Assembly (NCBI GenBank): GCA_030679975.1
Contig: JAUXSL010000052.1
Coordinates: forward strand, 1 to 32,376
Source of the DNA: Actinomycetota bacterium
GTDB taxonomy: Bacteria; Actinomycetota; Aquicultoria; CAJVYJ01; JAUVQD01
Reading direction: 5' to 3'
Length of the DNA stretch: 32,376 nt
Part shown: piece by piece, positions 11,033 to 27,998 of the stretch
Layout of the letters: each line of letters opens with the position of its first letter
How positions within the stretch are numbered: the stretch's first letter is position 1
Notes under the pieces: generated by a model
Told to the model about the DNA's origin: nothing
Databases searched by the model: none
Seen by the model: only the letters and a program-made list of their open reading frames with translations
Made by a program: the position numbers and the translations under genes

Positions 11033-11995
11033 ATGCTCGACGGCTCCCTTTCCATCGATAAAACAGCTGATAAACCCGCGGGCGCCGCCCGTCTAACCGA
11101 GGTGATCCGGGCGCTTTTAGGGATGTCGCGGGCGATCGTCGCCGTCTTTGTGGTCGCCCACGCCGGCCTGGCCGCCATCTTCGCTACCGGTCGCGTGCCG
11201 GATATCCGCACCATCGTCATCGGCATATTCGCCTGCCTCTTCGGCACCGGCGCTTTGATCGGGCTAAACGATCTCCTTGACGTAAGCCTCGACCGCCGGC
11301 GGATGGCCGCCGAGGGGGAAGCGCCGGAGTTGGATCTCGGTTCGCTCTTTATCCACCACCCGGTCGCCAAAGGCGTTATCAGCATGTCGACGGGGCTCAT
11401 CTGGGTAGGCTGCTTGTCTATTCTGAGCTTAAGCCTGATATCCATGCTCAAGTCGGGACTCTGGCCGATATTTCTCCTGGTCGCGGTCTGCGTGGCGCTC
11501 TATTCGATCGTCGGTCGTTACACCTATTTCAAATTCATCTTTGTGGCTATGGCGGTCACTTTGGGGGCCCTGTCGGGCTGGCTCGTCGTCGCCCCGGCCA
11601 ACACCACGACGTTCCTGCTCTTCGGCGCCTGGACCTACCTTTGGGAGATCGGCGGGCGCAACGTGCCCAACGACTTTAACGATGTCGATGAGGATGCCGC
11701 TTTAGGCGTAAAGACGATCCCCGTCGTTCTCGGTAAAGCCCGGGCCGGAAAGATCGTCTTCTGGGCCCTGCTCGCCAGTTTTCTGGTGAGTCTGCCGCTG
11801 ATGGTCATGACAGACAAGCCGCCTCTCTTCATTGGCGGCGCGGTGCTGATCAGTCTCTATCTGCTTCTCATACCCGGTTATGCTTTAATGCGGGACCCGC
11901 GGCCACAGATATCGAGAAAGTTGTATAATAAATCGGCTATCTTTCCTTTAGTGCTTCTACTGCTTTTGATGGTCAATCTGCTGCTGGTGCGCTAA
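11033..11995 (+). CDS. UbiA-family prenyltransferase
   Basis: A 320-residue membrane protein with eight or nine hydrophobic helices. The first Asp-rich motif is NDLLDVSLDRRR (NDxxDxxxD) and the second is NDFNDVDEDAALGVKTIP, both on the cytoplasmic side and used to bind Mg2+-prenyl diphosphate. UbiA enzymes attach polyprenyl chains to aromatic rings in ubiquinone, menaquinone, plastoquinone, tocopherol and heme O synthesis, or to glycerol phosphate in archaeal lipids. The following methyltransferase and UbiV/UbiU genes point to a quinone ring as acceptor, though sequence alone cannot say which. The ATG at 11033 has no clear ribosome site, and it lies only 31 nt after the IMPase-like stop, so coupling is possible. 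Confidence 0.82.
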   Translation: MLDGSLSIDKTADKPAGAARLTEVIRALLGMSRAIVAVFVVAHAGLAAIFATGRVPDIRTIVIGIFACLFGTGALIGLNDLLDVSLDRRRMAAEGEAPELDLGSLFIHHPVAKGVISMSTGLIWVGCLSILSLSLISMLKSGLWPIFLLVAVCVALYSIVGRYTYFKFIFVAMAVTLGALSGWLVVAPANTTTFLLFGAWTYLWEIGGRNVPNDFNDVDEDAALGVKTIPVVLGKARAGKIVFWALLASFLVSLPLMVMTDKPPLFIGGAVLISLYLLLIPGYALMRDPRPQISRKLYNKSAIFPLVLLLLLMVNLLLVR

Positions 11996-12029
11996 ACTGA
12001 ATGACTGTCTAATCAGGAGGTTTCTTTAA

Positions 12030-12764
12030 TTGCAGCAACCCGAACGACTTAAGAACGTAAAGCGGCCCGAGACCGAGGAGACGGTCCAGGCCTTCTTTTC
12101 ATCGGTGGCCCGCCGCTACGATATAGCCAACAGCGTCATCAGCATGGGGCGCCATTATGGCTGGAAGCGCCGGGCGGTCAGAGAAGTCAACCCGCGGCCG
12201 GGCGATAAATGTGTCGACGTTTGTACCGGCACTAACGACGTGGCCGTCATGCTGGCCAAAAAAGTCGGCCCGACCGGCCACGTAACGGCGGTCGATTGGA
12301 ACAAAGACATGCAGGATGTCGGCGATTTCAAGATCAAGAAGTTCGGGTTACAAGACCGGATAACCAATATCCAGGGCGATGCCGAGGCGCTGCCTCTGCC
12401 CGATAACGAATTCGACCGGGCGACGGTGGCCGTGGCCTCGCGCCACCTGCGCATCCCCAAACACTTTGCCGAGCTGTACAGGGTGCTTAAGCCCGGCGGG
12501 CGGGTTGTGGTTCTCGACTTTTTCGAGCCGCCCAACGCCATCTTCAGGAACTTGTACTTTTTCTACTCCTATCACATACTGCCGCGTCTCGGAAACTTGA
12601 TAACCCGCGATAGGACAGGTGTCTATTCTTATCTGCCGGATTCGGTCAAGCTCTATTACAAACCGGAAGATTTCGCGCGGGAGATGGAAAAGGCCGGCTT
12701 TAGAAACGTTAAATACTATCCGCTTTTTCACGGCGTCGTTTACATCCATGCCGGCGATAAGTGA
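12030..12764 (+). CDS. ubiE: UbiE/MenG-family quinone methyltransferase
   Basis: A 244-residue class I SAM-dependent C-methyltransferase. The SAM-binding motif is VDVCTGTNDVAVMLA in place of the usual LAGGTGD. It is followed by TAVDWNKDM, YRVLKPGGRVVVLDFFEPP, YSYHILPRLG and the C-terminal FRNVKYYPLFHGVVYIHAG, which is the end signature of ubiquinone/menaquinone C-methyltransferases. The family's GLRNV motif is altered here to SRHLRI, so substrate specificity may differ from MenG. It begins at TTG with AGGAGG nine bases upstream. UbiV starts six nt after its stop. Confidence 0.83.
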   Translation: MQQPERLKNVKRPETEETVQAFFSSVARRYDIANSVISMGRHYGWKRRAVREVNPRPGDKCVDVCTGTNDVAVMLAKKVGPTGHVTAVDWNKDMQDVGDFKIKKFGLQDRITNIQGDAEALPLPDNEFDRATVAVASRHLRIPKHFAELYRVLKPGGRVVVLDFFEPPNAIFRNLYFFYSYHILPRLGNLITRDRTGVYSYLPDSVKLYYKPEDFAREMEKAGFRNVKYYPLFHGVVYIHAGDK

Positions 12765-12770
12765 TTTTCT

Positions 12771-13718
12771 ATGAGTCTGTCGATCGAGCTAGTTGCCTGC
12801 TTACCCAACAAAAAGACATTTGACGGCGTCGACGCCGGGGGCCTTAACTCGGGCCTTGACTATATCTTCGACGGCTTCTATCTAGGCCAGCCATACTGCC
12901 TGAAGTCTCAGGGAAACTTTATCGTCAACCATGATGATCTGCGCGCCGTTGTCGGCGCCCTGCGCGGGCGGGGCAAAAAAGCTTATCTGACGACGCCGGC
13001 CATCCCCAAAGGCAAAGATCTGGCGATGGTAAGAAAAGCCATAGCCGCGGCGGTCGACGCCGGCATCGACGGCGTCGAGGCCCATGATGTCGGGGTGTTT
13101 CGCATCTTAAGGAACGAATTTCCTCAGGCTGCCGCCCATGTCGGCAATTTCGCCAATGTCTATAATGAAAAAACGGCGGCCTTATACAAAGGCCTGGGCG
13201 CCGCCCGGATATCCCCCAGTAACGAGTTGACGGGGGAGGAGTTGGCGATCGTGGCCGGAGTCGAGGGCGTCGAATTCGCCAGGGCGGTCCACGGGCCGTT
13301 GCCTCTCGGCATGGCTTACGCTTGTCTCTTGCGCCGCACCGGGGATTCCGAAACTGTCGATCCTTGCCGCCAGCAGTGCGCGATCGAACATTTTATGGAA
13401 CTCGACGGCTGGCGGATGCGGTCCGTCGGCACGTCGGTCTTAATGGGCGAGGACTATTGCCTGGTCGAGCACTTGGCCGGTCTGCTCGGGGCGGGCGTGT
13501 CCACCATGCGACTGGAAACATATTTCGATTCCCCGGAGCGGATAATCGCGTTGGGGAAAATATACCGGCAGGCTTTGGATGACGCCCTGGCCGGGCGCGG
13601 CGCCGGAGCGGAACATGTCGAGGCGGTGCGGGCGTTGACGACAGCCGGCCTCTGCAACGGCTGGCATTTTGGCCAAAGCGGCCGCGAATATGTCGGGGCG
13701 GGTGAATCGAATGTCTGA
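12771..13718 (+). CDS. ubiV: UbiV-like U32-family iron-sulfur protein (O2-independent quinone hydroxylation)
   Basis: A 315-residue U32 (peptidase-like) protein. It shares with Proteobacterial UbiV the segment YLGQPYC (Cys43), the block LPLGMAYAC-x13-CRQQC and a C-terminal LCNGWHF. These give the C...C-x13-C-x3-C set that binds a [4Fe-4S] cluster in UbiV (C-x12-C-x3-C in E. coli, from memory). UbiV works with UbiU to hydroxylate the ubiquinone ring without O2. The gene overlaps ubiU by eight bases, so a UbiU-UbiV complex is likely. No ubiT (SCP2-domain) gene is present here. The alternative is an RNA-modifying U32 protein, but the cysteine pattern argues against it. Confidence 0.82.
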   Translation: MSLSIELVACLPNKKTFDGVDAGGLNSGLDYIFDGFYLGQPYCLKSQGNFIVNHDDLRAVVGALRGRGKKAYLTTPAIPKGKDLAMVRKAIAAAVDAGIDGVEAHDVGVFRILRNEFPQAAAHVGNFANVYNEKTAALYKGLGAARISPSNELTGEELAIVAGVEGVEFARAVHGPLPLGMAYACLLRRTGDSETVDPCRQQCAIEHFMELDGWRMRSVGTSVLMGEDYCLVEHLAGLLGAGVSTMRLETYFDSPERIIALGKIYRQALDDALAGRGAGAEHVEAVRALTTAGLCNGWHFGQSGREYVGAGESNV

Positions 13719-14682
13719 TAACGGTCATAAGTCTGATAACGGTCATAAAAAGATAATGCTGATGTCGCCGGCCGGCAGCCTCGAGGGCGCTAAGTTGGCT
13801 TTCGATGCCGGCGCCGATGTCGTCTACGCCGGAGTCAAGAACCTGAGCATGCGGCCCAAGCGCGTCGAGTTCGATCAGAACCTCGGCGAGCTGATAGATT
13901 ACGCCCACGGGCGGGGGAGCCAGGTCTACGCGACCACGAATGTCTGCCCCAAGCCCAGCGATATCCCGCTCTTTGAAAAACGTATGGCTGAAGTCAGCGC
14001 GCTCGGCGCCGATGCCGTTATAGTCAGCGACCCCTGGGTGATGGAGCACGTCCGCGATAACTATCCCAACCTGCCTGTTCACGCCAGCATCATGACCAGC
14101 GTCGTCAACGCCGAATCCGCCAGGTTCTACAAGGAGCGCGGCGCGTCAATGGTGGTCGTCTCCCGCAGTCTGGGCGACCTCGATGAAATCCGGCGGATCA
14201 AAGACGAAGTCAATGTCGACATAGAGGTCTTCGTCCACGGCGGCATCTGCTATATGTTCGACGGCGATTGCTATATGAGCAGCTACTGGCGGCAAAAGCG
14301 CGATTTCGACCCCGACCTCGGTGTCTTCCGCCTGTTCGGCCAGAACAACACTAAAGGCGAGTGCCAGCTTATCTGCAAACGGGAGTGCTCGTTAACCGCC
14401 GATGGGGAAGAGCTGGCCAAGGGCAGGTTGATGCGCCGCCCGGATGACGTCGGTCTCGACCGTCTGCCCGCCTACATCGATATGGGCGTGCGCGTCCTTA
14501 AGATAGAAGGCCGGGCCATGTCCTTAAACTACATCGCCGAAGCCACCAAACTTTACCGCCAGGCCATCGACCTCTATTATGCCGACCCCGACCGCTGGCA
14601 GGTGCGCGACGAATGGCGCCCCGCCGTCGACCAACTCATCGAAGAGCGACTCGACTACGAGCGCACCTGGCATATCGGGTAG
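13711..14682 (+). CDS. ubiU: UbiU-like U32-family iron-sulfur protein (O2-independent quinone hydroxylation)
   Basis: A 323-residue U32 protein with LMSPAGSLEGAKLAFDAGAD near the start. The motif GGICYMFDGDCYMSSYW matches UbiU's GSLCIMSEGRCYLSSY, followed by GECQLICKREC and, near the end, LKIEGRAMSLNYIAEATKLY. The cysteines of C-x6-C and C-x3-C are placed as in cluster-binding U32 proteins. The ATG at 13711 begins eight bases inside the end of ubiV. An unusual Ser-Asp-Asn-Gly-His-Lys pair at the N-terminus comes from a tandem 18-bp repeat. With UbiV it should form a heterodimer that takes oxygen from a non-O2 donor. Its quinone substrate in this organism is unknown. Confidence 0.83.
   Translation: MSDNGHKSDNGHKKIMLMSPAGSLEGAKLAFDAGADVVYAGVKNLSMRPKRVEFDQNLGELIDYAHGRGSQVYATTNVCPKPSDIPLFEKRMAEVSALGADAVIVSDPWVMEHVRDNYPNLPVHASIMTSVVNAESARFYKERGASMVVVSRSLGDLDEIRRIKDEVNVDIEVFVHGGICYMFDGDCYMSSYWRQKRDFDPDLGVFRLFGQNNTKGECQLICKRECSLTADGEELAKGRLMRRPDDVGLDRLPAYIDMGVRVLKIEGRAMSLNYIAEATKLYRQAIDLYYADPDRWQVRDEWRPAVDQLIEERLDYERTWHIG
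13714..13749 (+). repeat. Tandem 18-bp duplication at the ubiU N-terminus
   Basis: TCTGATAACGGTCATAAG is followed at once by a copy differing only in the last base. It encodes Ser-Asp-Asn-Gly-His-Lys twice. The extra hexapeptide precedes the conserved domain and probably reflects a replication slip. Confidence 0.85.
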
Positions 14683-14958
14683 CGCCTCTGCGAGGCGCGG
14701 GCAAAACGCCGCAAATGGAATGACCGGTTCGATTCGGTCCTTGCCCGTTCCCGCGAAATCTTCCGCCGGCGGCTCATAGATCAAGGCTATGATCCAGACA
14801 AACTGAGCGATGAAGAGGTCGCCGAAATCATCAAGCCGAGATTCCAACCAAGCTCCGGACCAGGTTTTCGCGCCCGCCTCTATCCATGTCTTGCCGGATT
14901 AAGAGGCCGATATCCGCCGCGATCCCAGAGCCGCGAATATGTTATGCTGCACACATAA
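14683..14958 (+). pseudogene. Stop-separated open frame after ubiU, possible gene remnant
   Basis: Directly after the ubiU stop, the same frame stays open for 91 codons. Its first half reads like real protein (RRKWNDRFDSVLARSREIF, then RRRLIDQGYDPDKLSDEEVA), a charged helical pattern seen in small antitoxin-like or unknown bacterial proteins. There is no ATG, GTG or TTG in frame before that segment. The second half, rich in Pro and Arg, looks non-coding. The likely reading is a 5'-truncated relic; a non-standard start or an accidental open frame is also possible. The 317-nt gap 14683-14999 holds nothing else recognisable. Confidence 0.35.
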
Positions 14959-14999
14959 GTCAGCTTGAAAATTGTGGTCTTTGGTGAAAGGGGCGAATA

Positions 15000-15509
15000 A
15001 TGTCACGTAAGATATTGGTCATCGTTTTAGTGTTGGCGATGGGCGCGCTCACAACGGCCTGCGCGAAAACCATCGCGGAGAAGGTAATAGAGAACCAGAC
15101 CGGCGGCAAGGTGAAGGTAAATTCGGGTAAAGGCTCGGTTGAAATAAAGGGGAAAGGCGGTACGCTGAAGGTCGGAGAAAACACGCTTCCGGCCGACTTC
15201 CCCAAAGACGTTCCCGTATACAAGCCTAATACAGTCAAGAGCTCGATGAGCAACATCGTTGAAGGCAAGAAATCCTTTGTAGTCATCTTAACGACCAAAG
15301 CCGACGTTGACGCCGTCGCCGATTTCTACAAGAAAGGGCTGACCGGGAACGGTTGGACCGAAAAATCGGCCTTAACGGGCGGCGAGGGCGGTACACGGTT
15401 TGCCACCCTGGGCTACGAAAAAGGCGGTGCCATGGTAACCGTCACCATCACCAGGGCAAACAATGACAAAGAAACCCAGATGATGATCAGTTTTAATCCA
15501 AAGACGTAA
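15000..15509 (+). CDS. Lipoprotein of unknown function
   Basis: 169 residues with a lipoprotein signal ending in the lipobox TTAC (Cys21). Then comes KTIAEKVIENQTGGKVKVNS and a domain containing LPADFPKDVPVYKP, VVILTTKADVDAVADFYKKG and a C-terminal VTVTITRANNDKETQMMISF. The pattern 'P.DFP.DvPvYp' followed by 'a.fYk..L...GW' is common in unnamed secreted lipoproteins of anaerobes. GAAAGGGG precedes the ATG. The function is unknown; it should sit outside the membrane. Confidence 0.7.
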   Translation: MSRKILVIVLVLAMGALTTACAKTIAEKVIENQTGGKVKVNSGKGSVEIKGKGGTLKVGENTLPADFPKDVPVYKPNTVKSSMSNIVEGKKSFVVILTTKADVDAVADFYKKGLTGNGWTEKSALTGGEGGTRFATLGYEKGGAMVTVTITRANNDKETQMMISFNPKT

Positions 15510-15561
15510 TATCCACTCCAGTCCGAGGCGTGCGAGCGAGGCGAATCAATCAACGCCTGTC

Positions 15562-15581
15562 ATTCCCGCGTACGCGGGAAT
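15562..15581. repeat. Perfect 20-bp palindrome, REP-like
   Basis: ATTCCCGCGTACGCGGGAAT is a perfect 20-nt inverted repeat between two same-strand genes. Its core resembles the CATTCCCGCG...CGCGGGAAT intergenic repeats found in many bacterial genomes. It could act as a weak terminator for the lipoprotein gene, but it has no T tract. Confidence 0.6.
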
Positions 15582-15645
15582 TTCGGCCCATTTTATGTGA
15601 AAACGGGTAGATAAACGCATGTGATTATTAGAATGGAGGCATAAA

Positions 15646-16074
15646 ATGACCTCTGAGGAAGAAGTCCGGCAAGCGTCAGATCAGTTTTACGCCGCGCTCA
15701 ATAGTGTGTTTGCGGGAGATATCGCTCCGATGGAAGACATTTGGTCACACGGGCCGGATGTAATGACCATGCACCCGCTCGGCGGCCGCCAGCTCGGATG
15801 GGAAAAAGTCAGAGAGTCTTGGGAACAAGTGGCCGGGGCGATTTCAAGCGGCCAAGTCACCGCAACCGGGCTTAGGATCAGTGTGCTCGGCGACGTTGCT
15901 TTCACCATCTGCGTCGAACGCGGTCAGGTGGAAGTCGGCGGCGAAACCATCGAGATCAATATCCGCGCCACCGGTATCTATCGCCGCGAAAACGGCCAAT
16001 GGAAGAAAGTATTCCACCATAGCGATATCGACCCGGCGCTTCAGGAAGCAATAGAGCGCCGGCAAGTGGCCTAG
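15646..16074 (+). CDS. SnoaL/NTF2-like domain protein
   Basis: A 142-residue soluble protein. It starts with a helix (EEEVRQASDQFYAALNSVF), continues with APMEDIWSHGPDVMTMHPLG, and ends with sheet strands (IEINIRATGIYRRENGQWKKVFHHSD). This is the SnoaL-3/DUF4440 type of the NTF2-like fold. Such proteins have a cone-shaped pocket and many roles, including small-molecule isomerases. GGAGG lies before the ATG. No operon partner is adjacent. Confidence 0.82.
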   Translation: MTSEEEVRQASDQFYAALNSVFAGDIAPMEDIWSHGPDVMTMHPLGGRQLGWEKVRESWEQVAGAISSGQVTATGLRISVLGDVAFTICVERGQVEVGGETIEINIRATGIYRRENGQWKKVFHHSDIDPALQEAIERRQVA

Positions 16075-16094
16075 GTGGTCGCAGGCGGGCAATC

Positions 16095-16850
16095 TCAAGC
16101 CTCGGGCCGCAAAGCCAGCGCCATCTTCTCAACTTCGTCCCGGCTGAACTTGGCTTTGCCCTCCGTAACAATCTTGCTTAGAAACCGAGGCCTGGTCACT
16201 CTGACATGCTCGACCGTCAAGGCATTATTATCCACCCAAGCGTTGGTAAAGCAGAGAACAGGATTAACGAAAATCCGCTCGCGGGTCATGGGCTTGAGCT
16301 TATCCGCTAAATACGCGGCCTGGCGGCGAACTTGTTTTAAGGGGTCTTTGTCAAATGGATGGCCGTTAAGACATAGACATTTGGTGGTGTAGTGAACGCG
16401 GCCATCATGAGCTTTGGTTTCGATCACGAAGAGTCCGGTTCGACCGACAACCACATGGTCGATATTTCCGTGGCCGTTCGGCAAGTCATGGATAACGTGA
16501 AAATCTTCTGATTCGATTCCCTTAAGAGCCTCAGCGACACGCCGCTCGCCTCGGGCGCCTTTGATCCATGTGGCCTCAATGTGATCGGCTTTGGCATCAA
16601 GTTTCAATTGCCAGATGTACAAGAGTAAAAACAGCGCGATAATCCAGGGGAGATAGGTCAGCCGATGTGTGCTTAACAACAGCTTAAAACTGAAGGCTGC
16701 AATCAGCAATGAGCAAACAAACCAAGGCAGGAATGATTTTAGCATCCGCTTGGCGCCAACCAGTCGCATGCTTCTGCCCGCCGCCCCTCGGGCGAAAATA
16801 GACCAATCTATTTTATCCTTACCGTTTGACATACGACTTTTATCGGACAT
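16095..16850 (-). CDS. Membrane-anchored NERD-domain protein
   Basis: 251 residues with two adjacent hydrophobic helices near residues 45-85. The NERD (nuclease-related) domain follows: GARGERRVAEALKGIE, HVIHDLPNGHGNIDHVVVG, then GLFVIETKAHDGRV, the D-x-E-x-K type catalytic arrangement of the PD-(D/E)XK fold. A further block is QVRRQAAYLADKL. NERD proteins are thought to act on DNA, but their biology is poorly known. The start at 16850 has no evident Shine-Dalgarno sequence; an in-frame ATG at 16832 is an alternative. Confidence 0.8.
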   Translation of the reverse strand: MSDKSRMSNGKDKIDWSIFARGAAGRSMRLVGAKRMLKSFLPWFVCSLLIAAFSFKLLLSTHRLTYLPWIIALFLLLYIWQLKLDAKADHIEATWIKGARGERRVAEALKGIESEDFHVIHDLPNGHGNIDHVVVGRTGLFVIETKAHDGRVHYTTKCLCLNGHPFDKDPLKQVRRQAAYLADKLKPMTRERIFVNPVLCFTNAWVDNNALTVEHVRVTRPRFLSKIVTEGKAKFSRDEVEKMALALRPEA

Positions 16851-16915
16851 TCAGATCGAGTCAGTGAGCACTTACTTATCACCTTGGCCCCGGATGCAAT
16901 TTATAGAACATACGT

Positions 16916-16944
16916 TTGCCTAACAACCCCTTATCTGCTACTAT
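16916..16944 (+). promoter_or_regulatory. Promoter of the DUF1016 nuclease operon
   Basis: TTGCCT and TACTAT are separated by exactly 17 nt on the plus strand, about 85 bp before the first gene. A GC-rich inverted repeat (GCCCGG...CCGGGC, near 16974-17001) lies between promoter and ribosome site and could be a control site. Confidence 0.5.
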
Positions 16945-17030
16945 ATCCATAGCATCAAAACCACATAATAATGCCCGGCGCTGCTCTACACAGCCCGGGC
17001 GCGGACCCAACTACACGGAGGTGTTGGATC

Positions 17031-17318
17031 GTGGCAAATCGTAGCACAAAACCCCGCTCGCTTCATTGGCTGAGGGAAGAGGCAAGGGCGGCGCGCCGGC
17101 GGCACAGGGCGGCGGTGACCGTCAATGTCGAGGACGCGATCTTTGCAAGGCTGGTTGAAGCGGAAGAACTGCTGATTGTCGCCATCGGGCTTTTTACGGA
17201 GCTGGCGGAGGACGAAGCGAATTGGCTTTTTAGTCACCAGGCCGACATTGGTGACGCTCGTTGGGCGTTGCGGAGCGCCATAGATGATAGAGCGACAGTT
17301 CGGGAGGTGAGTAGATGA
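17031..17318 (+). CDS. Small partner protein of the DUF1016 nuclease
   Basis: 95 residues from a GTG start with GGAGGTG nine bases upstream. The N-terminal part is strongly basic (ARAARRRHRAAV). The remainder is predicted helical with LVEAEELLIVAIGLFTELAE. The family was not recognised. Its stop overlaps the nuclease start (ATGA), which points to coupled translation and a physical pair. It may be the regulatory or antitoxin half of a two-gene system. Confidence 0.6.
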   Translation: MANRSTKPRSLHWLREEARAARRRHRAAVTVNVEDAIFARLVEAEELLIVAIGLFTELAEDEANWLFSHQADIGDARWALRSAIDDRATVREVSR

Positions 17319-18421
17319 CAGGCAGAGACCTGATTAACGCCGACTACACGGTATTTGTTACCGATTTGAAGGTTCGCATCCGATCGGCCAGGATTTCGGC
17401 GGCCCGAGCAGTTAACCGGGATTTGGTCTTGCTATACTGGGATATCGGTCGGGCTATCGTGGAAAAGCAGGAGCAACTTGGTTGGGGTCGGGCGGTTGTC
17501 GAAAGGCTCGCCGGGGACTTGCAGGCGGCTTTTCCTAACACTCAAGGTTTCTCGGCGCAGAACTTGTGGCGGATGCGACAATTCTATGCCGACTACACGG
17601 CCCCTGAGTTTTTCGAACAGGTGCAAGGAATCACAGAATTAGACGATGGCCAATCGCGGCCAAAGGATGCGCCCGAAGTTCTCTCACGGGCTGTGAGAGA
17701 TTTAGTGGTGCAGATTCCGTGGGGACACCACGCGAATCTCCTTGCGAAGATCAAGGCGCCCGAAGCCCGCTTCTATTACCTTCAGGCTACCGCTCGCTAT
17801 GGCTGGACACGCAATGTGTTGCTAAACCAAATAAAGGCTGCGGCTTATGAGCGATCGGTTAACGAGGGTAAGACGCACAATTTTAATCTTGCGCTGCCGG
17901 CGCATCTAGCGGAGCAGGCGGAGGAGGCACTTAAGAGCTCGTACAATCTCGAATTCTTAGGGATTGGTCGCGAGGTTCGCGAGCGGGAACTGGAAAACCG
18001 GCTGATCGAACGCCTTCAGCAATTTATCCTGGAGCTTGGCTACGGTTTTTGCTTCATTGGCCGTCAATATCGGCTCATCTTGGGGGAAAATGAATATTTT
18101 ATTGACCTGCTTTTCTACCACCGTTTTTTGAAGACCCTGGTGGCGGTCGAGCTAAAAGTGGGAGTCTTTGAGCCGGAGTTCGCGGGGAAAATGGATTTCT
18201 ATCTAAATCTATTGAACGAGAAGGAGCGGGCCGCTGACGATCAGCCCTCGATCGGGATTATCTTGTGTGCCGAGAAGGACGATGTGGTGGTAGAGTTCTC
18301 GCTCAAAAGCAAGACGAACCCTATTGGGGTAGCCGAGTACAAGCTCACGGATAGGTTGCCGGAAGAACTGAAGGGTAAGTTGCCCAGCGAAAAGGCGCTA
18401 CGTGATGCCCTGTTGATGTAA
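17315..18421 (+). CDS. DUF1016 (YhcG-type) PD-(D/E)XK nuclease
   Basis: 368 residues. The N-terminal DUF1016 domain holds LLYWDIGRAIVEKQEQLGWG, then FSAQNLWRMRQFYADY and VQIPWGHHANLLAKIKAPEA. The C-terminal nuclease domain holds FCFIGRQYRLILGENEYFID and LLFYHRFLKTLVAVELKVG, which supplies the D...E-x-K catalytic residues. Homologues such as E. coli YhcG are widespread accessory proteins associated with mobile DNA and proposed to act in DNA cleavage or defence. The length is typical. It is encoded immediately downstream of, and overlapping, a small basic protein. Confidence 0.88.
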   Translation: MTGRDLINADYTVFVTDLKVRIRSARISAARAVNRDLVLLYWDIGRAIVEKQEQLGWGRAVVERLAGDLQAAFPNTQGFSAQNLWRMRQFYADYTAPEFFEQVQGITELDDGQSRPKDAPEVLSRAVRDLVVQIPWGHHANLLAKIKAPEARFYYLQATARYGWTRNVLLNQIKAAAYERSVNEGKTHNFNLALPAHLAEQAEEALKSSYNLEFLGIGREVRERELENRLIERLQQFILELGYGFCFIGRQYRLILGENEYFIDLLFYHRFLKTLVAVELKVGVFEPEFAGKMDFYLNLLNEKERAADDQPSIGIILCAEKDDVVVEFSLKSKTNPIGVAEYKLTDRLPEELKGKLPSEKALRDALLM

Positions 18422-18442
18422 TCGCCGAAGAAGAGGTAAAGT

Positions 18443-18475
18443 ATGATTGTTGAAACGTCTGAGGAGTTCAAGTGA
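18443..18475 (+). pseudogene. Ten-codon vestige of a RelE/HigB-type toxin
   Basis: ATG followed by IVETSEEFK and a TGA that overlaps the GTG start of the XRE antitoxin (GTGA), with AAGAGG upstream. In intact HigB/NadS-type modules the toxin gene sits here and begins with similar words (M-I-x-E-T). The most likely reading is that the toxin body was deleted, leaving its start and stop context to couple translation of the antitoxin. It could also be a small leader peptide. Confidence 0.4.
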
Positions 18476-18768
18476 AAGATGAGCTGTTTGCCGAATTGCT
18501 TGACAGCGTGCGTGAAGGCGGCGCTATTTTGCGCAAAGAGAAACAGCCGAAAAGGACTTTCGAGCTTACAGAACCAGATGTAAGTGCTATTAGGCGGAAA
18601 TACCACCTCTCTCAGGCAAAGTTCGCGGCGCTGCTCGGCATAAGCGTCAGTACCCTTAGAAACTGGGAACAAGGCCGGCGCAAGCCGGAGGGGTCAGCCA
18701 GAGTTCTGTTAAAAGTTGCCGAGCGACATCCCGAGGTAATTCTCGATGTTCTCCACAAGGCCGGTTAG
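18472..18768 (+). CDS. XRE-family antitoxin-like regulator (HigA/NadS type)
   Basis: 98 residues. The helix-turn-helix lies in the C-terminal half: LSQAKFAALLGISVSTLRNW followed by EQGRRKPEGSARVLLKVAER, the conserved ending of HigA-2/NadS antitoxins. The N-terminal segment (ELLDSVREGGAILRKEKQPK) would bind a toxin. It starts at GTG with GAGGAG upstream. No intact toxin is encoded next to it, so it is an orphan antitoxin or regulator. Confidence 0.82.
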   Translation: MKDELFAELLDSVREGGAILRKEKQPKRTFELTEPDVSAIRRKYHLSQAKFAALLGISVSTLRNWEQGRRKPEGSARVLLKVAERHPEVILDVLHKAG

Positions 18769-18797
18769 CGAGTAGCATTGCAGACTAGGGAAGCAAA

Positions 18798-18998
18798 ATG
18801 AAGCTTAAAGTCGACGAAAAAAATGACGCACTATATTTCCGGCTCGATGAATCGGAGATCGTTGATTCCGAAGAGGTTAAGCCTGGGATCATCCTTGACT
18901 ACGATGCCAACGATAATGTCGTCGGTGTCGAGATTCTAGGGCTAAGCAAGCGTGTACCGCTGGCTAAGCTCAAAAGCCTCCAATTTGAAACTGCCTGA
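18798..18998 (+). CDS. DUF2283 protein
   Basis: 66 residues matching the DUF2283 pattern throughout: MKLKVDEKNDALYFRLDES, then VKPGIILDYDANDNVVGVEI and LGLSKRV. These small sheet proteins are often found beside DUF4258 or other putative toxins. Here no such partner is adjacent. It follows the XRE gene by 29 nt on the same strand. Confidence 0.88.
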   Translation: MKLKVDEKNDALYFRLDESEIVDSEEVKPGIILDYDANDNVVGVEILGLSKRVPLAKLKSLQFETA

Positions 18999-19089
18999 AT
19001 CTCGGGAAGTGCAAGCTGACAGAACCCAGGATTCGGTTTCTAGCAGCTCATGATCATAGTCTCGGCAAAATTCTGACAAGGAAGCTCGT

Positions 19090-19318
19090 GTGGACGAATC
19101 AAAGGTAATTCAAAAATTAATTGAGCATGACAAAAGGTTTGAGCAGCTGGTTACCAAGAAAGAATTCACTGAATTTAGAGACGAAAACTTCAATCGTCTC
19201 GATGATGTCATGGTCATCCTGAAGCGTCTCGATTAGGAGCGTGTTTTTTTCGAATGAGCGCGTTAACCGAATTGAAGCCAACGTCGAAGCGCTTAGGGCG
19301 GAAAGCTCAGAAGGTTAG
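19090..19318 (+). pseudogene. Broken coiled-coil small protein gene
   Basis: A GTG start (AAGGAAG upstream) opens a 48-codon frame with charged helical repeats (KLIEHDKRFEQLVTKKEF, then FNRLDDVMVILKRLD), ending at TAG (19234-19236). The frame resumes as ERVF and, after losing one T from a run of seven Ts, continues SNERVNRIEANVEALRAES until a stop at 19316. The natural protein would read RLDQERVF.NERVNRIE, so the gene seems to carry a Gln-to-stop change and a frameshift in the T tract. A related fragment lies at 20719-21007. Alternatively, the short 48-residue product is the functional form. Confidence 0.55.
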
Positions 19319-19327
19319 TGCTATAAT
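19319..19327 (+). promoter_or_regulatory. Extended -10 promoter of hicBA
   Basis: TGCTATAAT is an extended -10 element with a perfect TATAAT. It lies right after the broken coiled-coil gene and about 43 bp before the hicB start. No good -35 box is present, as is usual for extended -10 promoters. Confidence 0.55.
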
Positions 19328-19369
19328 TCAGACAACGAGGGCGTCGGCTGCTCAGAAGTGGAGATAACG

Positions 19370-19588
19370 ATGTCAAAAACTTTTAAGATAATCCTTGAAC
19401 CTCAACCGGAAGGCGGTTATACGGTTTGCGTCCCTGAACTCCCTGACGTCGTTTCCGAGGGGGACACGAAGGAAGAGGCTATCGAGAACATTAAAGACGC
19501 GATAGAGGGTTACTTGCTGACGATGAAAGAAATGGGCTGGACAACACCTGTGGTTGAAGAAGTTACGGTTGACGTTCAGGTCGCATGA
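19370..19588 (+). CDS. hicB: HicB-family antitoxin
   Basis: 72 residues forming the partial RNase-H-like HicB domain: FKIILEPQPEGGYTVCVPEL, PDVVSEGDTKEEAIENIKDA and IEGYLLTM. It has no appended DNA-binding domain, as in the short HicB subgroup. The ATG at 19370 follows GTGGAG; a GTG four codons earlier is less likely. Its stop overlaps the hicA start (ATGA), the normal layout for co-translated pairs in this antitoxin-first order. Confidence 0.9.
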   Translation: MSKTFKIILEPQPEGGYTVCVPELPDVVSEGDTKEEAIENIKDAIEGYLLTMKEMGWTTPVVEEVTVDVQVA

Positions 19589-19815
19589 GCGACAAACTCC
19601 CGAGTCTCAAGCCCGCCCAGCTTATCCGAGTTCTTGAAAAAGCAGGTTGGTACATCAAGCGCCAAACCGGCAGCCACGTCATTTTAGTCAACGAAGCCTT
19701 AAGGAAGAGCCTCCCGGTGCCTATGCATAAGCGATATCTAAAAACGGGCACGGCTCAGGGAATCATTAGACGCGCTGGCCTCACCGCCGAAGAAGTTCAC
19801 CGTCTGCTTAAGTAA
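19585..19815 (+). CDS. hicA: HicA-family mRNA interferase toxin
   Basis: 76 residues with the HicA signature: LKPAQLIRVLEKAGWYIKRQ, then TGSHVILVN, whose histidine is the catalytic residue, and LPVPMHKRYLKTGTAQGIIR. HicA toxins have a double-stranded RNA-binding-like fold and cleave mRNA; HicB binds and neutralises them. The length is normal and the active-site histidine is present, so the pair looks functional. Confidence 0.92.
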   Translation: MSDKLPSLKPAQLIRVLEKAGWYIKRQTGSHVILVNEALRKSLPVPMHKRYLKTGTAQGIIRRAGLTAEEVHRLLK

Positions 19816-19817
19816 TC

Positions 19818-19970
19818 ATGAAAAACCGCCCGCTAATCAAATGGTTTGATCTTTACCGCCGGTTGCGCAAACCTACCGCGCCGCCGCCTAAAGCACATGG
19901 GACAAAAGGCTACACTAAGGCAGATCGTCGAAAGGCTAAGAAGGCGATAGACGAAGAAGCGCACAATTGA
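19818..19970 (+). CDS. Basic microprotein, copy 1 (50 residues)
   Basis: A short ORF starting two nt after the hicA stop. It encodes MKNRPLIKWFDLYRRLRKPT, then PPPKAHGTKGYTKADRRKAK and a short acidic end. It is strongly basic with a Pro-rich middle. A near-identical copy at 21023 keeps the same protein despite many silent changes, which is good evidence that it is translated. The family was not recognised. It could be a nucleic-acid-binding accessory of the toxin-antitoxin locus, but no function is claimed. Confidence 0.65.
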   Translation: MKNRPLIKWFDLYRRLRKPTAPPPKAHGTKGYTKADRRKAKKAIDEEAHN

Positions 19971-20012
19971 CAATGTGGATCAAGGAGCGCTTGCGGCAAG
20001 AGGCTTCGTGCT

Positions 20013-20348
20013 CTATCGATTAAGACGAGCGGCTACAGCGTACTGCATAAAGTATCGCTCCAAACTCTCGTTATCCTCAGCTTGCCCGGTTTCGTCATAA
20101 ATAGCGCTAAGATACACTTCTTTTGCTCTCAGCACTTCCTTGGACCTAATAGATTTATTCGCGATCAACGACGATACTGTCGCATCGAACAAATCGATTG
20201 CACGGCCTACAGCCTGCGCGCAACCAGCATCATCGCGGCGACGCTTAGCGCTAAAAGATCGGCCAACTTCGCTGGAAATATTGCCCATTTGGTCAAAGAT
20301 GCTCATCTTTGACCAACGCTCTCGATCTACCGCATACGGAACGTTCAT
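20013..20348 (-). CDS. Helical protein paired with DUF5674
   Basis: 111 residues, predicted largely helical: NVPYAVDRERWSKMSIFDQM, GNISSEVGRSFSAKRR, then AIDLFDATVSSLIANK and SLERYFMQYAVAARLNR. The pattern resembles small four-helix proteins of unknown function. The start codon overlaps the stop of the DUF5674 gene (TAATG), so the two are co-translated. They form a compact two-gene operon opposite to the surrounding genes. Confidence 0.75.
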   Translation of the reverse strand: MNVPYAVDRERWSKMSIFDQMGNISSEVGRSFSAKRRRDDAGCAQAVGRAIDLFDATVSSLIANKSIRSKEVLRAKEVYLSAIYDETGQAEDNESLERYFMQYAVAARLNR

Positions 20349-20686
20349 TATTTGACTTTCTCCGCAACCAGCAAGGTTATCTGTTTACGAAGTTTTTCAT
20401 CATCCACCCCGCGTGACATGTTTTGTTGCCTGGGGCGAATGTTTATCATCGAATCAAATTCGATAAACTCATCCGTTTGGAATTGGGCCGGGTATAGATT
20501 TATGCCCCACAAATCGTTTTGGTCGGAACCATTTTCCAAAAAATATTGTTCGGCGTCGACGTGCATTTCCACATCTACAACCAGAAGTGTTTTTTTAAGG
20601 TCGACAACCGCTTTTACAAAATTCCCATACATTTTAAGTGCCATTTCGGATAGTTCAGCAATGGTTATCGAATCGACCTGTTTCAT
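20348..20686 (-). CDS. DUF5674 protein
   Basis: 112 residues with the recognisable blocks MYGNFVKAVVDLKKTLLVVD, VEMHVDAEQYFLENGSDQND, LWGINLYPAQF and FIEFDSMINIRPRQQNMSRG. These match DUF5674, a small protein family without known function. It is the first gene of a two-gene operon. The genomic setting among toxin-antitoxin genes suggests a similar role, but this is inference only. Confidence 0.82.
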   Translation of the reverse strand: MKQVDSITIAELSEMALKMYGNFVKAVVDLKKTLLVVDVEMHVDAEQYFLENGSDQNDLWGINLYPAQFQTDEFIEFDSMINIRPRQQNMSRGVDDEKLRKQITLLVAEKVK

Positions 20687-20718
20687 AATAAAAAGTATAT
20701 CAGAAAGCGCCGGTCTGG

Positions 20719-21007
20719 TTTTTGGATGAAATGGTTAAGATCCTGCGCCGGCTCGACTAAGAGCTGGAGTTGGAGTTGCCCCGTTTCTGTTGACACCTTA
20801 ACTTGGAACAACGGCGTCCGCCGCTGGTTATGAATATATAGAAAGTTTTGACTTTCATTGGGCAGGGAACGCTTGAGGCAAGAGGCTTCGCAGTCGAAGG
20901 CTTGCAAATAAACATAGCAAAAGGCGCGCGTTGACAACCGATTTGAGGATTGTTTAACTAGGTTTATGGACGAAACGAGCCTCGACCAGGAGCGGTTTGG
21001 CGCCTGA
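20719..21007 (+). pseudogene. Scattered remnants of a second coiled-coil gene copy
   Basis: FLDEMVKILRRLD followed by TAA and GAG (20719-20763) matches the end of the broken gene at 19090 (VMVILKRLD, then stop, then E). Further right, 20966-21007 encodes MDETSLDQERFGA, which joins the start of the same gene (MDES) to its LDQERF segment as if by internal deletion. Both are too short to be functional. They occupy most of the 336-nt gap 20687-21022. The segment LDQERF shows the glutamine codon that is replaced by a stop in the other two places. Confidence 0.45.
20931..20959 (+). promoter_or_regulatory. Promoter upstream of microprotein copy 2
   Basis: A perfect TTGACA is followed after 17 nt by TTAACT, a plausible -10 box. 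It lies about 65 bp before the second microprotein and just before the 14-codon remnant MDETSLDQERFGA. Confidence 0.55.
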
Positions 21008-21022
21008 ATTGAAATTGAAATC

Positions 21023-21172
21023 ATGAAAAAACGTCCCATAATCAAATGGCTTGATCTCTATCGCCGGTTGCGCAAACCTACCGCGCCGCCGCCTAAAGCG
21101 CATGGGACAAAAGGCTACACCAAGGCCGACCGTCGAAAGGCCAAGAAGGCGATAGATAAAGAAATGGATTAA
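21023..21172 (+). CDS. Basic microprotein, copy 2 (49 residues)
   Basis: It encodes MKKRPIIKWLDLYRRLRKPT, then the same Pro-rich and basic segment as copy 1, ending in KKAIDKEMD. The two proteins differ at only a few residues, mostly near the ends and by conservative changes, while the DNA differs at many third positions. That is the pattern of selection on the protein. The downstream gap 21173-21418 shows no further gene. Confidence 0.65.
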   Translation: MKKRPIIKWLDLYRRLRKPTAPPPKAHGTKGYTKADRRKAKKAIDKEMD

Positions 21173-21421
21173 GCGGCCAATTCGCCTTTAGTATAACGGA
21201 TGATTTTGTGGCAAAATTCCGCTAAGTCGGCCCCGGGCGCGGCCGCTTCTTTACTGAGTCACGCATAACTTGAAAATCATTCCTGGCGGACGCTTGCGGT
21301 TAAGGCGACTATCAAGTCGAAGTCATCCGGGTTTAAGTCATGGACAGCGTTGCTTTCTTCCGAGACAGAGTGGTAAGCTGGCGGTGAAAATGGCGCATTT
21401 GGTTCTGAAAGGAGCCCCGTG

Positions 21422-21772
21422 GTGGACAACAATGTAGGTACCATAATCCCCATAGCTATAGTTCTATATTTAGGCATACTAATTTTCATGCTGGCTTCAA
21501 TGTGGCGGGTCTTTGAAAAGGCCGGTCGCCCGGGATGGGCGGCCATCATACCGATCTATAACACTTACATCATGCTGCTGGTCGCGGGTAAGCCCGGGTG
21601 GTGGCTGCTCCTGCTGCTGATTCCGTTCGTCAACATCGTCATTGAGATACTGGTTGTTGTCGGTGTGGCCCAGAAATTTGGAAAGGGCGGTGGCTTTGCG
21701 GTCGGGCTGCTCTTCCTTCCCTTCATATTCTTTCCGATACTTGCTTTCGGTAGCGCCGAGTACACAGGTTAG
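21422..21772 (+). CDS. DUF5684-type membrane protein
   Basis: About 116 residues with three to four membrane helices. A conserved block FEKAGRPGWAAIIPIYNTYI is followed by AGKPGWWLLLLLIPFVNIVI and then FGKGGGFAVGLLFLPFIFFP, ending GSAEY. This matches the DUF5684 family of small membrane proteins, sometimes fused to signal peptidase I. Two GTG codons are adjacent; the second (21422) has the better spacing to AAAGGAG. The function is unknown. Confidence 0.82.
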   Translation: MDNNVGTIIPIAIVLYLGILIFMLASMWRVFEKAGRPGWAAIIPIYNTYIMLLVAGKPGWWLLLLLIPFVNIVIEILVVVGVAQKFGKGGGFAVGLLFLPFIFFPILAFGSAEYTG

Positions 21773-21781
21773 GGCAAGTCT

Positions 21782-22963
21782 TTAAGGAGCGCTTGCGGCG
21801 TGCTTCGCGCGGATCTCATCGGCCAGGGCATCGAGCGCGGCGAAATCTTCGGCCCGCGGATAGCCTTTGGCGAGAACCGGCTCGATTATCTCGACCTTGA
21901 GGTTGGACAGCATTCCGGTCAATTGCTCCACGGCCTTGCTGCCCCATCCGTAAGAGCCGATAAACGAGGCGTATTTGGTTTTTGGTCGCAGCGCGTTGAT
22001 CAGGTAGGCGGCGCTGACGGCGCCGGGGTGAGCGCCCACCAGCACGGTGGGGGAAGCCAGAATTATAGTCGAGGCATCGACTATGGCCGTTGCCAGGCGG
22101 CCTAAATCGACCCCGGTCAGGTGGAACGGCTTGACGGCGATATCCCGGTCGATCAAAGCATCAATGAAGTAATCGACCATCCGCTGGGTGCTGCCGTGCA
22201 TGGAAAGATGAGCGATGACCACCTCGTTCTTGGTCTGGTCGCCGACCCAATCCCGGTAGGCGTCGATAATTAATTCCGGGCGGTTGTGAAGCGGGCCGTG
22301 ACTCGGCGCGATTATGTCGACATCAAGCTCCGCCACCTTCTCCAGGTGTTTTTTGATGTTGTTTCGATACGGCATCATTATCTCGGCATAGTAGCGCTTA
22401 GCCGCCGGTAATATTGTGGGGTCGTCGCCGGCGAAGAGCGCGCCGGTCGCCAGATGCGTGCCGAAGAAATCGCACGTAAAGAGCACCCGCTCTTCTTTAA
22501 GATAGGTCATCATCGTCTCGGGCCAGTGGACCCAGGGAACCAGGATAAACTCGAGAGATCTGTCTCCGAGCGACAATACATCCCGATCTTTTATCTCGAC
22601 AAACCTTTCGTCGGGAATCAGCAGGAGGTCTTGGAGCATCGGCCGGCACTTGGCGTTGGTCACAATCTTAGCCGTTGGATAGCGGGCGAGCACATCGGGC
22701 AAAGTTCCCGAATGATCTTGCTCGGCATGGTTCACAACAACGTAGTCGAGGTTGTCGAGACCCAGCTTGTCAAGATTTCTGAACAAGTGGTCTTTCTTGG
22801 TGGGATCGACGGTGTCTATCAGCGCCGTTTTTTCGCTTCCCTTAACCAGGTAAGCATTGTAGCTCGTGCCATCGGGGAGCGGTATCAGTTCGTCAAATAG
22901 CCGCCGGTCCCAATCGATCGCCCCGACCCAATACACGTCCGGTTTAATTTGTCTGACAGCCAT
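21782..22963 (-). CDS. fprA: Flavodiiron protein (FprA-type O2/NO reductase)
   Basis: 393 residues in the two-domain layout of class A flavodiiron proteins. The N-terminal metallo-beta-lactamase domain carries the diiron ligands in NHAEQDHSG (H-x-E-x-D-H), WVHWPETMMTY, FTCDFFGTH and APSHGP. The C-terminal flavodoxin domain has HLSMHGSTQRMVDYFIDAL and GSYGWGSKAVEQL for FMN. These soluble enzymes reduce O2 to water or NO to N2O and protect anaerobes. AAAGGAG sits just before the ATG. No rubredoxin gene is adjacent. Confidence 0.92.
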   Translation of the reverse strand: MAVRQIKPDVYWVGAIDWDRRLFDELIPLPDGTSYNAYLVKGSEKTALIDTVDPTKKDHLFRNLDKLGLDNLDYVVVNHAEQDHSGTLPDVLARYPTAKIVTNAKCRPMLQDLLLIPDERFVEIKDRDVLSLGDRSLEFILVPWVHWPETMMTYLKEERVLFTCDFFGTHLATGALFAGDDPTILPAAKRYYAEIMMPYRNNIKKHLEKVAELDVDIIAPSHGPLHNRPELIIDAYRDWVGDQTKNEVVIAHLSMHGSTQRMVDYFIDALIDRDIAVKPFHLTGVDLGRLATAIVDASTIILASPTVLVGAHPGAVSAAYLINALRPKTKYASFIGSYGWGSKAVEQLTGMLSNLKVEIIEPVLAKGYPRAEDFAALDALADEIRAKHAASAP

Positions 22964-23152
22964 CTAGTGCTCCTTTACGAAATCATACACGCTCGATTCA
23001 AGCTTGTCGATCAAGTTTGACGGTGCTTCGATCTTAAGCCCTTCCTTGCCGGTCTGGTAATAACGCAAAGCGCCGGGGTTATCGGCGCGGTGGTGACGAC
23101 GCCGGCGATAACCGGATGGTACCGGGGGCTTAATAAGCCGGGCTTTTGACAA
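22964..23152 (-). CDS. Doubtful small ORF ahead of the flavodiiron gene
   Basis: A 62-codon frame whose stop abuts the flavodiiron ATG (TAGATG). The C-terminal part, YYQTGKEGLKIEAPSNLIDK followed by LESSVYDFVKEH, looks protein-like, but the N-terminal part is Arg- and His-rich. The only start is a TTG without a ribosome site, which overlaps the -35 box of the opposite promoter. It may be a truncated gene whose true N-terminus has decayed. The last codons overlap the Shine-Dalgarno sequence of the flavodiiron gene. Confidence 0.35.
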   Translation of the reverse strand: MSKARLIKPPVPSGYRRRRHHRADNPGALRYYQTGKEGLKIEAPSNLIDKLESSVYDFVKEH

Positions 23153-23174
23153 TATTGTTATTTACTGATATTGT
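23146..23174 (+). promoter_or_regulatory. Promoter and AT-rich operator region of the AbrB/RelE module
   Basis: A perfect TTGACA is followed after 17 nt by TATTGT. The sequence just downstream repeats GTAAAT twice (23173-23193), the kind of repeated AT-rich half-site that antitoxins bind for autoregulation. The first start codon is 37 bp after the -10 box. Confidence 0.6.
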
Positions 23175-23211
23175 AAATTCGTAAATATGGAATACTAAAG
23201 AGAGAAGAAAC

Positions 23212-23768: not shown

Positions 23769-24752
23769 CTACTTTTTTCCGGCAATAATGAGTTGCTGGT
23801 CGCGCGCGGCCAGATCGAGGAGTTTGATGCCGCTGAAACCGGCGGCGGTCAACCATTCGGTATACTGGTCGACAGTCCAGGTGCCGCCGTTGGCTGTGTT
23901 TACCAGCATGTTGATGCCGAATAAGGGGGCCGACGGGCTCCGGCCCCGGACGTAATCCTGAATGGCGATCAGTCCGCCGGGCGCCAGGGCCTTAAAGACA
24001 CGCTTGTAGAGCGCCGTGTTCTTATCCGGTCCGTATATGTGCGTGACATTGCCTAAAAACACTATGTCGAACGGCCCCTTGGGGATAGACTCGTTAAAAT
24101 CGCCGCCCACCGGCGTTATCCTCGGGAACGTGGCGGATATCTCGTCTTTTATCGTCTCCACGACATCCTCGATATCGAACAAAGTCACGGTCAAGCCATA
24201 GTCGGCGAAGACTTTGCTGACGGTGCCGGTCGCCCCGCCGATATCGAGGACCGACTTGGCCCGTGGAAACTGGGTCAGACATACATTCACCGCTTGCTCG
24301 GCCGTCGGCCAGGCGTAGACATCCATCGCCCGGACAAAGCCTTCGACCGATTCGCTGAAGCGGTCGCCGGGGACCGCTTCGCCGGTTGCCAGCGCCTCGG
24401 GCAGGGTCAACCATCTTTGGGCCAGCCTCCAACTGTGCAAGACCGCCCAGCCGAGGTAGGCGCGGCTGGTCTTGTCGCCGAACTTTTTCATCGCCGCCTT
24501 CGTCAGGGCGTACGGTTCGCCGTCCGGTTCTAAATAGCCCGCTTCAGCCAGCGCCGCCAGAAAGATAGACGTCGCCCGCTTGTCGAGCCCAAGCTCCTTT
24601 GCCAGCGCGTCGGAGGTACGCGGCGCCGCTGCCAGCGCGGTGAAGACGCCGGTTTTTATCGCCGCCCCGACCAGCATTAACTCCTGCCATGAGCCGGACT
24701 CATACCATCGCCCACTATGATATTTTGCCGACAAAAAAGATGTATCGGACAT
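23769..24752 (-). CDS. SAM-dependent O-methyltransferase (acetylserotonin/plant OMT type)
   Basis: About 327 residues. An N-terminal winged-helix dimerisation domain (LMLVGAAIKTGVFTALAAAP, then TSDALAKELGLDKRATSIFL) precedes the Rossmann methyltransferase domain. The SAM-binding motif is VLDIGGATGTVSKVF, followed by TLFDIEDVVETI, FDIVFLGNVTHIYG and LAPGGLIAIQDYV. This layout is typical of family 2 O-methyltransferases. The acceptor is unknown and there is no biosynthetic cluster around it. The ATG at 24752 was preferred over farther-upstream codons because the domain begins right after it; no strong ribosome site is present. Confidence 0.83.
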   Translation of the reverse strand: MSDTSFLSAKYHSGRWYESGSWQELMLVGAAIKTGVFTALAAAPRTSDALAKELGLDKRATSIFLAALAEAGYLEPDGEPYALTKAAMKKFGDKTSRAYLGWAVLHSWRLAQRWLTLPEALATGEAVPGDRFSESVEGFVRAMDVYAWPTAEQAVNVCLTQFPRAKSVLDIGGATGTVSKVFADYGLTVTLFDIEDVVETIKDEISATFPRITPVGGDFNESIPKGPFDIVFLGNVTHIYGPDKNTALYKRVFKALAPGGLIAIQDYVRGRSPSAPLFGINMLVNTANGGTWTVDQYTEWLTAAGFSGIKLLDLAARDQQLIIAGKK

Positions 24753-24849
24753 TCCGGCATTGTAGCAGAGGCGGAATAGGCTGTCATCGCCCGCCGGTCT
24801 CGTTATATACTGACGTTTTACGATGACGATTTCAGGAGGGGACGACCAT

Positions 24850-25137
24850 GTGTGGATGACAGTCAACTCGCTGGCTTTGATCCGTCGTTGGGACCCATAT
24901 CCTTTCATCTTGCTCAATCTGGTTTTATCCTGCCTGGCGGCCATCCAGGCCCCCGTTATCTTAATGAGCCAGAACCGGCAAGCGGACCGGGATAGGATAC
25001 AAGCGGACCTTGATTATGAGGTCAACATCAAAGCTGAAAACGAGATAGGGGATATGCAACGGGACTTAGATGAGATAAAGCAAATGGTCGCGGCGTTGTC
25101 TGTCGCGAGTGCTGACGGGACCGGGGGCAAAGCCTAG
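24850..25137 (+). CDS. N-terminally truncated DUF1003 membrane protein
   Basis: About 95 residues. It contains FILLNLVLSCLAAIQAPVIL followed by MSQNRQADRDRIQADLDYEV and EIGDMQRDLDEIKQMVAAL, the second half of the DUF1003 domain with its helix and coiled-coil tail. Full DUF1003 proteins have another membrane helix and about 60 more residues at the N-terminus. These are absent here. The GTG at 24850 has a strong AGGAGGGG eight bases upstream, so a short product may really be made. A longer frame begins at 24823. Confidence 0.7.
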   Translation: MWMTVNSLALIRRWDPYPFILLNLVLSCLAAIQAPVILMSQNRQADRDRIQADLDYEVNIKAENEIGDMQRDLDEIKQMVAALSVASADGTGGKA

Positions 25138-27906: not shown

Positions 27907-27998
27907 GAAAATAACATCTACAGTCGGTCCAGGCGCGCGGAATAGGCGCGATCTGTGTTAAAATAGCCGGGTTACACTATTTGTTTTTGAGGAGTTTA

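Follow-up and report, generated by a model that had tools for sequence, protein, structure and literature searches.

The window (the whole stretch of DNA analysed, 32,376 nucleotides, one complete contig of an Actinomycetota metagenome-assembled genome, MAG) contains four consecutive genes, A, E, V and U, encoding a prenyltransferase, a methyltransferase and two U32 proteins. Together with a partly unlinked methyltransferase gene, M, they probably form a compact O2-independent route to a methylated, possibly methoxylated, polyprenyl benzoquinone-type lipid that would serve as respiratory quinone. This reading, held with moderate confidence, is based on the observed gene content, conservation, co-occurrence of genes, absence of the tested pathway markers and presence of complex I. 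The first-pass annotation had proposed O2-independent quinone hydroxylation outside Proteobacteria. The host does belong to Actinomycetota, but UbiUV-type hydroxylation outside Pseudomonadota is not new by itself, because O2-independent ubiquinone synthesis has already been published for the class GWC2-55-46 (PMC13386864). The new elements are a separate lineage of U32 pairs, a fixed A-E-V-U operon, a methyltransferase that co-occurs with it and a host in which UbiD, UbiT and menaquinone markers are lacking. No paper describing such an operon came up in a literature search for UbiU in Actinomycetota.

Surveys have reported many lineages without a recognised quinone pathway, and further quinones have been suggested to await discovery (PMC13386864). 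The operon, conserved in genomes that have complex I and lack the tested known pathways, is a concrete candidate for the synthesis of such a quinone. If the reading is true, O2-independent ring hydroxylation, possibly with a benzoquinone-type carrier, extends to anaerobic Actinomycetota, and the locus bears on whether benzoquinone-type quinones predate oxygen.

Conservation of the locus and distribution of M

G000 denotes the window's own genome; other G numbers denote the genomes compared. G000 is an Actinomycetota MAG of 1.76 Mb (127 contigs, 96% complete), and the relatives of the locus are all from Actinomycetota, as expected from the earlier inference of a non-proteobacterial host. The host has anaerobic-type heme synthesis, with an AhbD-like protein. 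A search of about 85,000 GTDB species with protein A, which may omit G000 itself, returned six relatives or loci, all from Actinomycetota; most carry CSMAG isolate names, a prefix read here as indicating cold-seep MAGs. A MAG chimera was rejected: the block with its ahbD/hemE neighbours recurs in other MAGs.

The cluster is found in eight genomes (G000 and seven others) belonging to four families and two classes, G038 being from the other class. The order A-E-V-U is complete in G001, G002, G003, G017 and G038 besides the window; G006 (81% complete) has E-V-U only and zero UbiA-family matches genome-wide, and in G005 a contig end divides the cluster between two contigs. Identity to the window protein ranges across relatives from 46 to 74% for U and from 33 to 62% for V. 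The V family was detected in 8 of 397 genomes spread over the phylum, with scores of at least 446 bits (except one of 236, truncated by a contig end) followed by a drop to 154. For G001 and G003, which are near relatives, the ratio of nonsynonymous to synonymous substitution rates (dN/dS) is 0.076 for A, 0.045 for E, 0.150 for V and 0.025 for U; all four genes are under purifying selection. The locus is not a chance assemblage, because its gene order is kept in seven other genomes and dN/dS is 0.025-0.15.

In G001, G002 and G003, M is the neighbour of U and runs in the opposite direction; it lies nearby in G005 and 9 kb downstream in the window, and is unlinked yet present in G006, G017 and G038. 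It was thus found in all eight cluster genomes (E <= 1e-51) and at no comparable level in ten others (best 48 bits, G012); G004 (75% complete) has neither the cluster nor M. For this co-occurrence Fisher p is ~2e-5, with the relatedness of the genomes ignored, and M is probably the fifth gene of the pathway. Conservation in M sets in at about residue 63; translation may therefore begin further in than the coordinates given. An invariant His in a conserved HIY is located, in an alignment made by eye, roughly at the position of the catalytic base of O-methyltransferases. The solved relatives are mostly small-molecule methyltransferases, with many O-methyltransferases among them (MmcR, COMT/caffeate and hydroxyindole O-methyltransferases); O-methylation by M is therefore rated only as likely, because they also include one C-methyltransferase.

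Features of the encoded proteins

V and U had been annotated as both halves of the UbiU-UbiV hydroxylase. The resemblance and the sister position of the two proteins stand; the name is overstated with respect to equivalog scores, cysteine spacing of U and the UbiT partner. V scores 72.5 bits against a UbiV cut-off of 275 and U scores 168.7 against a UbiU cut-off of 440 (NCBIfam NF047965, NF047963), so that 'UbiU/UbiV' expresses resemblance and not assignment. The cysteine sets, previously described as conserved, do keep four residues each. Those of V (C43, C185, C199, C203) are invariant in 7 sequences, and their spacing in the window, CXnCX13CX3C, is essentially that of Escherichia coli UbiV (CXnCX12CX3C; PMC6747719). 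Those of U (C180, C187, C218, C222) are invariant in 8 sequences; their spacing, CX6CX30CX3C, differs both from that of UbiU (CX6CX16CX38C) and from the common U32 pattern (CX6CX15CX3/4C) (PMC6747719), and the UbiU arrangement is not found in U.

In trees of 42-44 U32 proteins, the pairing of V with the UbiV clade has support of 100/100 and that of U with the UbiU clade 98/92; each is a sister of its clade and lies outside it. In the best tree V and U are apart from the TrhP and RlhA clades, and the V side is long-branched. The phylogeny proposed by the first-pass annotation hence places the pair beside UbiU/UbiV and outside the RNA-modifying clades, but for U the alternatives are not rejected (p 0.06-0.12, see below). 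V and U (315 and 323 aa) are without the long C-terminal part of the RNA-modifying U32 proteins TrhP (453 aa) and RlhA (653 aa). A sequence search of the PDB gave no U32 entry for V and only 5d88 for U. Structure models of V and U (predicted local distance difference test scores of 73 and 77) are consistent with a U32 barrel, with 5d88 as best solved match for both, and are weak at the cysteine regions. By analogy, V-U is taken to be a heterodimer that would carry one [4Fe-4S] cluster per subunit.

A is the sole UbiA-family protein of G000. It belongs to the UbiA superfamily (PF01040, two Asp-rich motifs), with the motifs NDLLDxxLD, HHPVxxG and WEIGGRNxPNDFNDxxED; NDLLDxxxD and NDFNDxxED are kept. 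Its scores are below every NCBIfam UbiA, MenA and MqnP cut-off (top 46.5 bits; MenA models ~21-24 bits, less than UbiA models). In G017, a second UbiA-family protein (C176, L124 3335-4291) has a start like that of the cluster A (LLGFSR...AQAAL) and may be a paralogue.

The best NCBIfam model for E is NF052510, MpqE (263 bits, cut-off 335), followed by TIGR01934 of the UbiE/MenG subfamily (207 bits); MenG gives 163 bits. Three divergent relatives rank the models alike (MpqE 261-278 bits, all below 335), and the lead of MpqE is at least 50 bits in all four proteins tested. By score, E is nearest to MpqE of methyl-plastoquinone synthesis, a benzoquinol methyltransferase model. The motifs CTGTND and SRHLRI, previously reported as altered, are real and kept in relatives: CTGTND varies as C(T/A/S)GT(N/C/A)D, and SRHL is found in 7 of 8 sequences, ARHL in G017.

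Quinone markers, proposed route and alternatives

Absence was tested for marker families. Within those covered, which do not include UbiC, UbiX, UbiB, MqnC/E, heme-copper oxidases or the remaining Men genes, the search for ubiT and men/mqn genes proposed earlier gave no UbiT, MqnA/D or over-cut-off MenD in the host. MqnA/MqnD (PF02621) was found in none of the eight cluster genomes and in 5 other genomes of the same class; UbiD (PF01977) in none of the eight and in 6 of 7 other genomes searched. No MenD exceeded the cut-off in the eight genomes (best 73 bits versus 244), the matches resembling other thiamine diphosphate enzymes. UbiT/SCP2 (PF02036) is absent from G000 and five other cluster genomes; the SCP2 matches of G005 and G006 are on other contigs. 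The chance of one gene being missing from all eight MAGs (71-96% complete) is ~2e-8, assuming independent losses. The standard futalosine pathway of menaquinone synthesis (no MqnA/D, no UbiD), the standard Men pathway (no MenD) and an ordinary proteobacterial ubiquinone locus (host identity and scores) were rejected. The 'modified menaquinone' suggested earlier is not supported via either known menaquinone pathway, MqnA/D and MenD being absent.

G000 encodes complex I: NuoD (480.7 bits, cut-off 360), NuoH (360.8, cut-off 305), NuoA, B, C, M and N, and a protein with a NuoI domain. NuoD keeps GPQHPSMHG and DRADY, presumably containing the His and Tyr of the quinone site, and NuoD-type genes are also found in G001, G005, G006 and G038. 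With complex I present, a quinone is expected, and none of the tested markers of known pathways is there. The earlier proposal of a hydroxylated quinone other than ubiquinone agrees with this: complex I without menaquinone marker, UbiD or UbiT speaks for some quinone, without specifying its type. Cytochrome bd was found neither in G000 nor in any of the 15 genomes searched. In the complex I operon of G000 (C126, L114 7470-9458), the NuoI domain is fused to an NAD(P)-binding flavoprotein like the small subunit of glutamate synthase, and extra antiporter-type subunits are encoded; G006 has an open reading frame of the same length as the fusion gene (L117 4959-6947).

In the proposed route, A would attach a polyprenyl tail to an aromatic ring. 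Hydroxylation of the ring would fall to U-V and need no O2. By analogy with UbiUV, for which 18O2 labelling showed O2-independent hydroxylation (PMC10470549) and a review gives prephenate as the reported source of oxygen (PMC11574389), the oxygen would probably come from prephenate. M would methylate the new hydroxyl, and E a ring carbon, in the manner of MpqE, UbiE or MenG; complex I would reduce the resulting quinone. The ring carboxylate might be lost without UbiD in three ways: decarboxylative prenylation (MenA-like), a COQ4-like oxidative decarboxylation carried out by V-U, or use of a carboxyl-free precursor. A narrower version, entertained only tentatively, is an undescribed respiratory quinone made along a five-gene route that dispenses with UbiD and UbiT; there the separate-lineage U32 pair would carry out both O2-independent hydroxylation and removal of the ring carboxylate, as an anaerobic counterpart of COQ4-type enzymes.

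Several points weigh against the proposed route. UbiT, needed in E. coli, is missing beside these U32 genes. In G000 no NrfD-type protein was detected, the survey of the respiratory chain being confined to complex I, cytochrome bd and this family. The cluster genomes are all incomplete MAGs. A is distant from all characterised UbiA proteins, its top solved match being an archaeal digeranylgeranylglyceryl phosphate synthase. Approximately unbiased (AU) tests do not reject the grouping of U with TrhP (p 0.12), with RlhA (0.075) or with both (0.058).

The host could instead make ubiquinone by a strongly diverged O2-independent route, in which A, E and U-V would be diverged UbiA, UbiE and UbiUV, M would replace UbiG, and unrelated enzymes would perform the UbiC and UbiD steps. 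The locus and M would supply a prenyltransferase, a hydroxylase pair, a C-methyltransferase and a likely O-methyltransferase, the tree sets V beside UbiV and U beside UbiU, and ubiquinone outside Pseudomonadota has a precedent (PMC13386864). This is nevertheless considered unlikely: UbiD is found in none of the eight genomes and UbiT is not found in G000, all proteins are far under the Ubi equivalog cut-offs, and E is nearer to MpqE than to UbiE. Scavenging of a naphthoate precursor from neighbours, for example 1,4-dihydroxy-2-naphthoate (DHNA), would account for the missing UbiD and early Men/Mqn genes; a MenA-like decarboxylating prenyltransferase (A) and MenG (E) would be enough to yield menaquinone, to which U-V would add an optional hydroxyl. 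This is rated slightly less likely still: A scores low with MenA models and E with MenG (163 bits versus 263 with MpqE), and neither the strict linkage to a U32 pair nor the fact that M co-occurs would be explained.

The suggestion that the product is a prenylated aromatic or archaeal-type lipid and no respiratory quinone draws on the top solved match of A and on the family of M, common in secondary metabolism. It is improbable, as a link to quinones is established for methyltransferases of the UbiE type and for U32 pairs resembling UbiUV, and complex I would be left without a known quinone source. Least probable is that V and U hydroxylate RNA, like TrhP or RlhA, and are located by chance beside two quinone genes: U has the CX3C end of RNA-modifying U32 enzymes and its grouping with TrhP passes the AU test (p 0.12), but the tree supports V with UbiV and U with UbiU, the C-terminal parts of TrhP and RlhA are lacking, and the linkage to A and E is repeated across eight genomes.

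Layout of the window and comparison with known systems

The four consecutive genes predicted by the first-pass annotation were borne out by the sequence and by Pfam, with all four scores well over cut-off (Table 1). The start of U and the stop of V overlap by 8 bases, as in translationally coupled operons.

Table 1. Locus features in the window; aa, amino acids; SAM, S-adenosylmethionine.
Feature	Position	Strand	Description
A	11033..11995	+	320 aa; divergent UbiA-superfamily prenyltransferase; Pfam UbiA 92.9 bits
AGGAGG	12015..12020	+	Shine-Dalgarno-like, ahead of the TTG start of E; read from the sequence
E	12030..12764	+	244 aa, TTG start; UbiE/MenG-type SAM C-methyltransferase; Pfam Ubie_methyltran 198.4 bits
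V	12771..13718	+	315 aa; UbiV-like U32 protein; Pfam Peptidase_U32 94.6 bits
U	13711..14682	+	323 aa; UbiU-like U32 protein; Pfam Peptidase_U32 188.3 bits
M	23769..24944	-	PF00891-type SAM methyltransferase

U and M, adjacent in G001-G003, are separated in the window by a probable insertion (14683-23200) that includes a YhcG/DUF1016 nuclease gene (17315-18421). Near the contig edge, a group I intron (RF00028, 84 bits, 226-509) overlaps a tRNA match (467-534) on the minus strand (226-534). Genes for an AhbD-like heme b synthase (453.7 bits, cut-off 500), HemE and ferrochelatase are in a row on the plus strand (27981-31176); G003 has the same ahbD-hemE-ferrochelatase order, followed by a gene for a protein with a flavin adenine dinucleotide (FAD)-binding-type N-terminus.

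The window system shares with UbiU-UbiV(-UbiT) (E. coli yhbU, yhbV, yhbT) two neighbouring genes for short, single-domain U32 proteins, each of which has four conserved cysteines. It differs in the scores of the pair, below the cut-offs, in the CX6CX30CX3C spacing of U, in the absence of UbiT from G000 and in the fixed A-E-V-U order joining UbiA- and UbiE-type genes. The likeness to the methyl-plastoquinone pathway (MpqA-E, Nitrospirota) is through the MpqE model only, to which E is nearest though below the cut-off; the hosts are anaerobic-looking Actinomycetota, those of the other pathway aerobic Nitrospirota. The nearest precedent is the O2-independent ubiquinone pathway of the Desulfobacterota class GWC2-55-46. 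This pathway, which includes UbiC, UbiD, UbiG, UbiX and UbiT and complements E. coli (PMC13386864), likewise combines U32 hydroxylases, independence from O2, uncultured MAG lineages outside Pseudomonadota, compact clusters and no menaquinone pathway; the window system has neither UbiD nor UbiT, and its proteins are much more divergent. The futalosine and Men pathways also use a UbiA-family prenyltransferase and then a MenG-type methyltransferase, but they need no U32 pair, and neither MqnA/D nor an over-cut-off MenD is found in the cluster genomes.

Other genomes of the same class have further U32 loci. G012, which has no MqnA/D, carries UbiUV-type genes at two loci (L121 9220-17330 and L122 2-3540). 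One encodes UbiD (MqnL-type, over cut-off), two MqnE/MqnC-like radical SAM proteins, two UbiU-like proteins, one UbiV-like protein and an MqnP-like prenyltransferase; the other encodes UbiD, UbiX, UbiU and an SCP2 (UbiT-like) protein. UbiUV-type genes are thus located inside a futalosine-type operon in G012. E. coli-like UbiU-UbiV-UbiT triplets are found in G009 (L123 10534-12932), G024 (L048) and G008 (L053, UbiU frame broken in two), actinobacterial genomes in which MqnA/D and UbiD are present as well. The UbiU-UbiV-UbiT loci of these same-class genomes are a different system from that of the window.

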